Origin: a filamentous cyanobacterium CCT1
GTDB lineage: Bacteria; Cyanobacteriota; Cyanobacteriia; Phormidesmidales; Phormidesmidaceae
Length of the DNA: 64,000 nt
Direction of reading: 5' to 3'
Assembly (NCBI GenBank): GCA_003017855.1
Contig: PYER01000002.1
Location: forward strand, 1-64,000
Shown: in pieces, positions 42,997 to 46,670 of the stretch
Numbering within the stretch: position 1 is the stretch's first letter
Layout: each line of letters starts with the position of its first letter
Program-made: the position numbers and the translations under genes
The notes under the pieces: generated by a model
What the model saw: the letters and a program-made list of their open reading frames with translations, nothing else
Databases searched by the model: none
Told to the model about the DNA's origin: nothing

Positions 42997-45534
42997 ATGG
43001 CGCAGCCCATAGACTCCAATTCTTCAGCCTCTGGCTCTAAGCGTGCCGGTAAACCGTCGGTTGAGGCCTTTTACCAGCAGGCGATCGCAGCTTTTAAGGC
43101 CCAAGACTATGACCAAGCTTTGGCCCAATTTCAGCGCCTAGAACAGCTCCCAACAACATCGCCCTACTATCTCAAAGCTCTGATGGGCCGAGTGCGCGTT
43201 CACCAGCGTCTTGGCCAGGATGATCAGGTCAAACGACTCTGTCACAAGCTGCTCGACAGCCCTTCACCCCAGGTTCAGCAGTGGGCTCAGCAGGTTTTGA
43301 ACCCGTCTCAATCGACCGCGATCGCTACTGATCCAAACGCTAGTACCCCAAACGCTGAGCCGCCAGCTACCGCTGGGGCAGATTTGAGTGGCTTCGTCCC
43401 CTTAGACAATGCCAAGAACTTGTCGCAGCGGCCCGCCGCCCCCCAGACGCTGACGCCTGCTCCCACCGAGCGGCCCGTTAAACCAGCTCAGCCCGCGCCC
43501 CAGGACGTTGCTGATTCGACGCAGTCTACACCGGTTCAGGACGCTTCGGAACCTGAGGTGCGATCGCTGTTTCACTATCAACAGCTCAATCAGCAGCCTG
43601 ACGCCGAGCCCAAAGATACGCAGACAAAGCCGGTCGGAGATTTCCCTTCAGCGTCCCCACGACCCACACCAGTAGAGTCTGCTGTACCGGAGCCAACCGC
43701 GCTGCCGTCTAGGCCCCAGCAAGTTCGACCCCAGCGCCAGGTGCCCTTACCGAAGCGCCTCCTGGCCCTGTGGCTGGGCCAGGGGCTAACGGCGATCGCC
43801 TTGATCTGGGTGATCAACTGGGCCTTTCATTTCACCTTAAGAACCGTAGATGGACTGCTGCGCTGGGTACGCTGGCCCGTTCAGCTCAGCCTGCCTGGAG
43901 CTTATCAGACCTATACGATTTGGATCGTTATCGGGCTGGTGCTGCTGGCACTGGCTAGCCCCTGGCTGATGGATCTGGCGCTAGCGGCCTGGTACCGTCA
44001 GCGCTCCCTATCTATTCGTCAGCTGCAAACCTATAGCCCTGCCACGCTGCGCCTGCTGCGGCAGGTGTGCCGTCAGCAGGGGTGGCCAATGCCAGAGCTA
44101 AGGCTAATTGCCGACCCGGCGCCCCTGTGCTTTAGCTACGGCTGGCTGCCTCGCAATACCCGAATTGTGGTCAGCCAGGGGCTTCTAGACCGGATGTCAG
44201 ATCAGACTCTGACCACGTTCTACAGTTACGAACTGGTCCGGACGGTCAACGGCAGCTTGCCGGTGCTCTCAGCCGTTGGGCTGTCGCTGCTGCTGCTGCA
44301 TACGGGGTACTACTGGCTGGCTCAGAGGGCAGATGCTCTCAGCCAGCCGATGCTCCGGGGCCTGCTGGGCAGCGGCGCAGGTCTTTTCTATGGTCTATTT
44401 TGGCTGCTGCGACAGGCTGTACTGTGGCTATCGCGGTTGTGCTGTCGCTGGGGCGATCGCCGCGTTGTAGCCCTAACCCAGCAGCCCGATCGGGGCATTG
44501 AGGTCATAGTGGAGGCGACTGCTGCGATCGCAACCTACCTGCAACAGCACGGCACCCTGCATCCGCTCCACACTAGCCTGGAGGTACTGATGCCCGTCAG
44601 CAGCCGTCAATCGATTACACCAGGTCGGCTGCTGGCCACTTCAGAAGGCGCCTCAAAGGGCGTTGGCCCTGAGGGGCCGGTCTCCGACCATCGCGCGGCC
44701 ATTTTTAGCACCCTTTTAGCTGTAGATGGGCTTAACCCCTATCGCCAGTGGCTGCGGGTCAATGCTTCCCACGAACCGCTGGGCGAGCGACTGCTCTGGC
44801 TCCATCAGCAGGCCCTCCTGCGAGGTCAACCTGGCCTTCCTCTCGAATCCGGTGCACCTCAGCGAGCTCCCTCAACCACTATGTCACTTCCCCTGCTGCT
44901 GCTGCAAAAAGGCCCTCTGGCAGGCCTAGTAGCTGGCGGCAGCTTGGCTATGGGCCTGTGGTTTATAGGAGGAGTTGTCAACCGGCTAGGTTGGCAGCAC
45001 CTGAGCTGGCTCTACCAAGACCCCAGCATTTTGATCGGCGGGCTGTGGCTAGGGTTGGGGTTAGGCCTGCTGCTGCGCATAAACGTGCTTTTTCCTGAGT
45101 CTGGCCAATCGCCAGCCAGTCGGCCACCAGAGGAAACGGTCGCCAGCCTGCTGCTGCACCCTGCACCATTGCCGGTACAGGGACAGCCGGTCACGCTACG
45201 GGGCAAGCTGCGAGGCTTGCCCGGGGCCGGTAACTGGGGCTGTCAGGACCTTTACTTAGATGATGAATCAGGCCTGGTAAAGCTAGTTAACCCTGTGCCA
45301 CTGGGGACTTTACAGGGCTTGCTTCAGCCTCAAACCCATCCAGCCGGTTGGGTAGATCGGATGGTTACCGTCACCGGCTGGAGCCGCTACGGTGGTGGCC
45401 TGCTTTGGGTAGATATTGACGAGGTAAAAACCGATCAGCGCCATAGCTTCTCAGCCTATGGACCCATTTGGGCTACCACAATCAGCATTGTCAGCAGCGG
45501 CATTGGCATTTTGACCATTCTTAGAGGCGGTTAG
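42997..45534 (+). CDS. Large M48-like membrane protein lacking HExxH, with OB-like C-terminus
   Basis: An 845-residue protein. Residues about 20-105 resemble TPR helices (AFYQQAIAAFKAQDYDQALAQFQRL). Residues about 110-250 form a Pro/Gln-rich linker, followed by two membrane helices (about 258-325). Residues about 340-440 look like an M48 peptidase N-terminal part (LRLLRQVCRQQGWPMPELRLI, FSYGWLPRNTRIVVSQGLLD), but the place of the zinc motif HExxH reads YELVRT. Two more membrane helices lie near 645-690. Residues about 715-815 look like an OB-type domain. Probably a catalytically dead paralogue; function unknown. Confidence 0.6.
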   Translation: MAQPIDSNSSASGSKRAGKPSVEAFYQQAIAAFKAQDYDQALAQFQRLEQLPTTSPYYLKALMGRVRVHQRLGQDDQVKRLCHKLLDSPSPQVQQWAQQVLNPSQSTAIATDPNASTPNAEPPATAGADLSGFVPLDNAKNLSQRPAAPQTLTPAPTERPVKPAQPAPQDVADSTQSTPVQDASEPEVRSLFHYQQLNQQPDAEPKDTQTKPVGDFPSASPRPTPVESAVPEPTALPSRPQQVRPQRQVPLPKRLLALWLGQGLTAIALIWVINWAFHFTLRTVDGLLRWVRWPVQLSLPGAYQTYTIWIVIGLVLLALASPWLMDLALAAWYRQRSLSIRQLQTYSPATLRLLRQVCRQQGWPMPELRLIADPAPLCFSYGWLPRNTRIVVSQGLLDRMSDQTLTTFYSYELVRTVNGSLPVLSAVGLSLLLLHTGYYWLAQRADALSQPMLRGLLGSGAGLFYGLFWLLRQAVLWLSRLCCRWGDRRVVALTQQPDRGIEVIVEATAAIATYLQQHGTLHPLHTSLEVLMPVSSRQSITPGRLLATSEGASKGVGPEGPVSDHRAAIFSTLLAVDGLNPYRQWLRVNASHEPLGERLLWLHQQALLRGQPGLPLESGAPQRAPSTTMSLPLLLLQKGPLAGLVAGGSLAMGLWFIGGVVNRLGWQHLSWLYQDPSILIGGLWLGLGLGLLLRINVLFPESGQSPASRPPEETVASLLLHPAPLPVQGQPVTLRGKLRGLPGAGNWGCQDLYLDDESGLVKLVNPVPLGTLQGLLQPQTHPAGWVDRMVTVTGWSRYGGGLLWVDIDEVKTDQRHSFSAYGPIWATTISIVSSGIGILTILRGG

Positions 45535-45553: not shown

Positions 45554-45582
45554 TTGCAACAAGCTGCTGTCGGTGTTACATT
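45554..45582 (+). promoter_or_regulatory. Candidate core promoter of the sRNA
   Basis: TTGCAA (45554-45559), a 17-base spacer and TACATT (45577-45582), each 4/6 to consensus. The HLR1 repeat overlaps the -10 box, a placement that would favour repression by bound RpaB in low light. Confidence 0.4.
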
Positions 45583-45592
45583 AATTTACAGA
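45575..45592 (+). promoter_or_regulatory. HLR1-type element (RpaB binding site)
   Basis: GTTACATT, AA, TTTACAGA: two direct repeats of (G/T)TTACA(A/T)(A/T) separated by two bases, failing only in the last two positions. HLR1 is the known binding sequence of the high-light regulator RpaB at psbA, hli, photosystem I and psrR1 promoters. It is the only such pair I noticed in the window. Confidence 0.6.
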
Positions 45593-45706
45593 AACACATG
45601 CCTGGGTTCCCTGGCCGCTTAAAGAGTTGGCTTCGGGGTTTGTTAGGTATTGGGTTCTCCTACTCTCAACACAGCAAACAAACCAGCCCTTCTCGGCTGG
45701 TTTTTA
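45590..45706 (+). ncRNA. Candidate high-light sRNA (PsrR1-like)
   Basis: A transcription unit of about 117 bases bounded by the HLR1-overlapped promoter and an intrinsic terminator: stem AACCAGCC / GGCTGGTT (45681-45688, 45695-45702) with a CTTCTC loop and TTTTT. Upstream of the terminator is a CU-rich stretch GGTTCTCCTACTCTC (about 45652-45666) that could pair with ribosome sites. The architecture matches PsrR1 (SyR1), a conserved cyanobacterial sRNA that represses photosystem I and phycobilisome genes in high light. Identity is inferred from architecture, not alignment. The 37-codon frame inside has no family features. Confidence 0.5.
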
Positions 45707-46229
45707 TTTAAAGGCTTAATCTGAGCCAGTAATTTAGCCAAGCAAGGGGCATATACCGTGTTACCTTGATAAGTGGTGTAGTCGGTTGGTACAACTCTGG
45801 CTTTCTGAAAGGTAAGATGCTCAACGTTGTCCAATAGGTTGAAAATGATTCTCTCTTGGGAGAGATGACTGAATCTGGACGGCTTTTATAATGCTTGAGC
45901 TATTTTCTGTAAGGCTCCTTGTTGGGGCGAAATGAGGCCGGTGCTGTGCTGTTTCTGCGATCGCTTTAGGCTGTGTTTAGGTGCTAACGACTGGTAGTGT
46001 ATCTAGGCGGGTTTCAGAGCCAGAATTTGTTAAGCTATTGAAAGACTTAACGCTTGACATTTTGATGCGACCTGATTGGTACTTTTAGGTCAGAGTCTGC
46101 AATCTTAATAATAGTTGGTTAAATTGGCGGCACTGTAGGCAGGTAGCGGTTGGCCTAAAGCTCAAACTTGATTCGGCAAGGTTATCGATCTCGATTCATT
46201 TGCCTTTTAGAACACCAGAGGTATCTTAA

Positions 46230-46670
46230 ATGTCAATTCGCCTTTATGTTGGCAATCTTTCTAAAGACTTAGAACGGCAGGAGTTTGAAAGCGCTTTTGC
46301 TGACTTCAACGCCGATTTAGTATCCGTAAAGCTCATCGCCGACAAGAAAACCGGGAAATGTCGCGGGTTTGGGTTTGTCACCGTCAAGACCGACGAAAAG
46401 GCCGATGAGATTGTTGAGAAGCTGAATGGTCAGGTGTTAGCCGATATGCCCCTCAAGATTGAGAAGGCCCTGCCCCGCACTAAGCCTGAGGGCGAAGCAG
46501 ACGCGCGTCCCAGTGGCGAAGCTGGCAGCAAGCGCTCCGGTAAGGGTGGCGCTCGTAAAGCTACACCAGCAGCGACTACCAGCAGTGGTGCCGTCCAACC
46601 CGATCCACGCTGGGCGGGTGAGCTGGAGAAGCTCAAGCAGATGCTGGCTGCTCAAACTACCTCGAGCTAG
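46230..46670 (+). CDS. RRM-type RNA-binding protein
   Basis: A 146-residue cyanobacterial Rbp-type protein. One RRM covers residues about 3-82, with RNP2 LYVGNL and RNP1 KCRGFGFV. After it comes a basic Gly/Ser/Ala linker (GSKRSGKGGARKATPA), then a short helical tail. These proteins bind RNA, some respond to cold and some help mRNAs reach thylakoids. The tail differs from the short Gly-rich Rbp forms. Ends at a good terminator. Confidence 0.88.
   Translation: MSIRLYVGNLSKDLERQEFESAFADFNADLVSVKLIADKKTGKCRGFGFVTVKTDEKADEIVEKLNGQVLADMPLKIEKALPRTKPEGEADARPSGEAGSKRSGKGGARKATPAATTSSGAVQPDPRWAGELEKLKQMLAAQTTSS

Follow-up and report, generated by a model that had tools for sequence, protein, structure and literature searches.

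Yfr1, a short sRNA of cyanobacteria whose CUCCU-type core is unpaired, is not known to be under HLR1 control. Where HLR1 overlaps the -38 to +23 region of a promoter, RpaB acts as a repressor, and it is released in high light (PMC13421787). The Synechocystis sRNA PsrR1 forms a 22-nt pairing with psaL that spans the ribosome site and the start codon, and it recruits RNase E (PMC10989914). ApcZ, also from Synechocystis, is described as an antenna sRNA derived from the 3′ end of an mRNA (PMC8136909). Within a 64-kb stretch of DNA from the filamentous cyanobacterium CCT1 (the window), we describe a gene, apparently single-copy, that very probably encodes a trans-acting sRNA and represents a divergent PsrR1, controlled by RpaB through HLR1, made in high light, and blocking target leaders by pairing in two parts. 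Sequence comparison establishes the conservation of the locus, the layout of its promoter and terminator, and its complementarity to target leaders with the distribution of that complementarity over the phylogeny; from these we infer transcription, light response, RpaB binding and a repressive effect.

Promoter, transcript and conservation of the locus

The HLR1 direct repeat GTTACATTAATTTACAGA departs from the consensus KTTACAWW-N2-KTTACAWW at one position and overlaps the -10-like element TACATT (Table 1). All other sites in the window show three or more mismatches; by our own estimate, about 0.07 sites with at most one mismatch are expected by chance per 64-kb window. The -35 TTGC, the HLR1 region, the core and the terminator are conserved in same-genus loci, and variants of the repeat such as GTTACCTTTCTTAACAG are found in other genera. 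In one sub-clade of the genus Nodosilinea (L010, L011, L013, L015 and similar loci), GTTAAG replaces GTTACA as the first repeat, a substitution that may weaken RpaB control in that part of the genus.

Table 1. Positions of the predicted sRNA gene elements and flanking genes in the window
Feature	Position	Strand	Basis
Upstream neighbour, 845-aa protein, no Pfam match	42997..45534	+	conserved synteny
-35-like element TTGCAA	45554..45559	+	sequence; TTGC invariant in 25 same-genus loci
HLR1 direct repeat GTTACATTAATTTACAGA (predicted RpaB site), overlapping the -10 and predicted start site	45575..45592	+	consensus match; conserved in relatives
-10-like element TACATT, 17-nt spacer	45577..45582	+	sequence; TAnnnT retained in same-genus relatives
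Predicted sRNA transcript, about 117-119 nt, putative start site	45590..45708	+	promoter and terminator positions; covariance model R1
5′ stem-loop region, invariant CCU paired with AGGU(A), loop part length-variable	45598..45650	+	fold
26-nt core GGTTCTCCTACTCTCAACACAGCAAA	45653..45678	+	22-nt stretch exact in 59/62 family genomes
Seed 1 GGTTCTCC (5′ half), PsrR1-type anti-Shine-Dalgarno core	45653..45660	+	Rfam PsrR1 alignment; alignment with canonical PsrR1
Seed 2 CAACACAGCAAA (3′ half), lineage-specific, predicted to pair with TTTGCTGTG of target leaders	45667..45678	+	duplex and leader comparison
Intrinsic terminator, stem 45680-45703 and T tract	45680..45710	+	both-sided pair changes across family
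Downstream neighbour, RRM RNA-binding protein	46230..46670	+	PF00076; conserved synteny

From the start site to the core, the predicted RNA varies in sequence and length among same-genus loci; changes in the 5′ stem-loop are mostly one-sided and covariation there is weak. The terminator, a 9-bp stem followed by a U-tract, has both-sided changes in four of its five scored pairs across the family. The CU-rich core between them is mostly unpaired in the predicted fold. Its 22-nt stretch GTTCTCCTACTCTCAACACAGC is matched exactly in 59 of 62 sampled genomes of the family that contains Nodosilinea (G062 has a one-base insertion in the core) and was not found exactly in 328 sampled genomes of other families. 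Allowing up to three mismatches gave nine matches in those 328 genomes, every one at three mismatches; the three that we inspected had neither HLR1 nor terminator and were rejected.

Two other readings of this region can be weighed at this point. A 37-aa ORF (45598-45711) begins right behind the predicted start site, and the three closest relatives keep it open, which fits an HLR1-driven small-protein gene like the light-induced SliP4; in most of 25 relatives, however, either the start codon or the frame is lost, with no change in the RNA core. With neither start codon nor frame conserved, we dropped this reading, which we consider highly improbable. The RRM gene at 46230 lies on the same strand in conserved synteny, as would be the case if the RNA were a leader or attenuator of that gene and not a free sRNA, but the conserved terminator, with its both-sided pair changes, stops the predicted transcript about 520 nt before the RRM start, and the core is complementary to leaders of other genes; there is very little chance that this alternative is correct. 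The layout agrees with an earlier note on this DNA, which had described a near-perfect HLR1 pair over a -10 box, about 117 bases without a credible gene (we found no conserved ORF), a CU-rich single-stranded-looking stretch, here conserved across the family, and a strong intrinsic terminator.

In a first search, each of the 24 same-genus genomes gave one match to the locus, always at the syntenic position; named relatives that carry it include Nodosilinea nodulosa PCC 7104, Nodosilinea sp. LEGE 06152, Tildeniella torsiva and others. Covariance model R1 recovered the locus in 61 of 65 genomes of the family, nearly always as a single copy, with two additional low-scoring matches, both without the promoter layout; in the own genome the model finds one locus. 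A lack of conservation in related genomes was among the outcomes that the earlier note would have taken as refuting its proposal; these counts show the opposite. The gene order of upstream protein, sRNA and RRM gene is kept in all family genera checked. Judged by eye, the upstream protein appears to be a degenerate M48-type membrane protein without the metal-binding motif. In each family genus that was checked, the RRM gene follows the sRNA directly on its 3′ side.

Relation to canonical PsrR1

The Rfam model of PsrR1 (RF02701) aligns with the locus over the full model, placing AUUGGGUUCUCCUAC of the window against AUUGAGUUCUCCUAC of the model. The locus is not a formal member of this Rfam family, because it scores only 14.3 bits against a gathering cut-off of 42. 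An Rfam scan at gathering level gave no match within the window, and a genome-wide RF02701 search of its own genome, whose strict filters also missed this locus, gave none. A search with RF02701 over 59 relatives was discarded as too noisy, with weak matches also present in 11 control genomes.

A pattern scan recovered canonical PsrR1 in other lineages, at 74.2 bits (L170) and at 63.5 bits (L199, from the unicellular cyanobacterium SU2). The conserved PsrR1 core GUUCUCCUA is identical in the window and in both of these genes, in which an HLR1 of the form GTTACAT...TTTACAT is separated from GTTCTCCTA by a similar distance; when the window is aligned with them, HLR1, GTTCTCCTA and a downstream terminator are retained. 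Two genomes of another family, G261 (MAG J069; L176/L301) and G058 (L300), contain a bridging form (around position 1500) in which HLR1 is followed, in this order, by CGTTCTCCTA, about 14 nt of spacer, CCAACACAGCGAA and a GCCAGCC terminator. This form has GTTCTCCTA in common with PsrR1, and it has CCAACACAGC (the 3′ half) and the terminator in common with the window family. HLR1 and GTTCTCCTA are invariant when the window, canonical and bridging forms are aligned. RF02701 does not recognise the bridging-form loci where it was tried (L176, L195). A scan for HLR1 plus TCTCCTA with long gaps was set aside; it returned mostly chance matches, and the control count was comparable.

The main rival to divergent orthology is convergence, in which a non-homologous HLR1-driven sRNA, with an anti-Shine-Dalgarno CUCC core that resembles PsrR1 by chance, came to fill the role of PsrR1 and replaced it in this family. 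The RF02701 score under the cut-off would fit such a history, as would the lack of synteny between the locus and canonical PsrR1 loci, and a CUCCU-type core, given that it matches Shine-Dalgarno sites, is a recurrent feature of unrelated sRNAs. Canonical PsrR1 loci differ in their neighbours and share no synteny among themselves either; we dropped synteny as an uninformative test of orthology. Nine identical core bases, an HLR1-to-core-to-terminator order as in verified PsrR1 genes, and the bridging forms in G261 and G058 all argue against convergence, which we regard as unlikely. We class the locus as a previously undescribed two-seed form of PsrR1, most likely a divergent ortholog. The earlier note had proposed a resemblance to PsrR1 by architecture only; to this are now added the GUUCUCCUA core alignment, the HLR1 position, the bridging forms and the predicted targets described below. 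A lack of similarity between the CU-rich core and PsrR1, which that note had listed as refuting, is contradicted by the alignment with GUUCUCCUA; in the covariance-model comparison that it had suggested, the score stays below the Rfam cut-off.

Predicted targets and a two-seed mechanism

In its own genome, the leaders of psaL, cpcA, apcF and psbU carry TGCTGTG...GGAGA sites that match the core (gene names, including those of the antenna genes, are from Pfam hits and our own reading of protein starts). Three of these, psaL, cpcA and apcF, were expected beforehand from the PsrR1 literature. The psaL leader CATTTGCTGTGACCTTATTTGAGTTGGAGAAACCCCCTATG carries a two-part complement of the core (-25.5 kcal/mol), and the pairing is found in 17 of 19 family genomes (16/18 strong, plus the own genome). 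When the 26-nt core is paired with the psaL leaders of 18 family genomes, the duplex energies have a mean z of -4.4 against dinucleotide shuffles; the psaL duplex of G060, whose first block holds 15 consecutive pairs, comes to -38.4 kcal/mol. About 25 psaL leaders of other families, a few of them at contig edges with an uncertain start, gave -4 to -18, with TGCTGTG in none. The psaL site is absent in G044 and G047 although the core is present, and neither the sRNA nor the psaL site was detected in G067. In G045 (L309), a near-complete genome, the psaL leader has the strong complement ACGTTGAGTTTGGAGAACC, yet no sRNA locus was detected.

The two-part design of psaL recurs in cpcA (TCGCTGTG...AAGGAGAACC; -25.1, z -5.2 in the own genome) and apcF (TGCTGTTTG...GTGAGAGTTGGGAGAAACC; -29.1, z -6.0), both in the own genome and in N. 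nodulosa; the cpcA site is missing in G060 and G066. The psbU leader gives -25.6 kcal/mol, and a pattern scan found psbU (AAATGCTGTG...GGTAGGAGA) with a conserved TGCTGTG...GGTAGGAGA site in three same-genus genomes (L265, L268, L262, near position 1500). These sites make psbU a possible photosystem II target, with weaker evidence than for psaL, cpcA and apcF because the pattern itself was the search criterion that brought it up. Among the 209 start regions scored in the own genome, these predicted targets are well separated from the others. The top four rows belong to apcF, psbU and cpcA (the last with two choices of start), and inside the window no start does better than -21.6. In a sliding scan along the sRNA, the best-pairing segments are those over the core. 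The psaL, psaJ and cpc leaders had been put forward for target prediction: psaL and cpcA have the predicted sites, psaJ has a 9-bp first-seed match only (z -1.2), and cpcB, like apcA and apcB, yielded no site in its leader. The earlier interpretation contained neither a second seed specific to the lineage nor psbU among the expected targets.

We propose that in low light RpaB bound to HLR1 would cover the -10 element and the start site and so repress the sRNA gene; in high light RpaB would leave, allowing synthesis of a transcript of about 117 nt. Its exposed core would then pair in two parts with the psaL, cpcA, apcF and psbU leaders, and weakly with psaJ. One part, GGUUCUCC, would lie over the Shine-Dalgarno stretch GGAGAA(C)C; the other, CACAGCAAA, in the 3′ half CAACACAGCAAA that we predict to act as a second seed, would pair with UUUGCUGUG about 10-25 nt upstream. 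Because the first seed would lie over the Shine-Dalgarno stretch with the second anchored upstream, a block of translation is the expected primary effect of pairing; recruitment of RNase E is possible, by analogy with Synechocystis only. The sRNA is probably switched on by strong light, and we predict that in Nodosilinea-type cyanobacteria its invariant 24-base core would keep photosystem and light-antenna proteins from being produced.

We lean towards an evolutionary account in which a single family of cyanobacteria remodelled its PsrR1: the RNA gained a second seed that has since stayed fixed, the psaL, cpcA, apcF and psbU leaders acquired UUUGCUGUG sites, a bipartite code replaced single-block pairing, and a photosystem II subunit joined the regulon. 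The locus would extend the RpaB-PsrR1 feed-forward loop to a large lineage of filamentous cyanobacteria not recognised by the reference model. It also offers a clean case in which a lineage-specific second pairing site is common to an sRNA and to several of its predicted target leaders, so that the rewiring of sRNA regulons becomes testable by comparing one-seed with two-seed families.

Comparison with known sRNAs

The closest described system is PsrR1 (SyR1, RF02701), which has in common with this locus the HLR1 promoter over the start site, the GUUCUCCUA core, a downstream terminator, psaL, cpcA and apcF as targets (predicted here), and a comparable length (about 117 nt here, 131 nt for PsrR1). 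In Synechocystis, the pairing of PsrR1 with psaL is a single 22-nt block that includes two mismatches and extends over the start codon (PMC10989914); the pairing predicted here has two parts and lies 5′ of the start codon. The locus also adds the invariant second seed CUCAACACAGCAAA after the core, does not have the PsrR1 consensus upstream of the core, stays under the Rfam cut-off, and has psbU as an additional predicted target. An unpaired CUCCU-type core is found in Yfr1 as well; the core sequences differ, and Rfam scans of the locus gave no Yfr1 match. Like ApcZ (PMC8136909), this would be an sRNA acting on light harvesting; ApcZ derives from an mRNA 3′ end, whereas for this locus an independent promoter is predicted.
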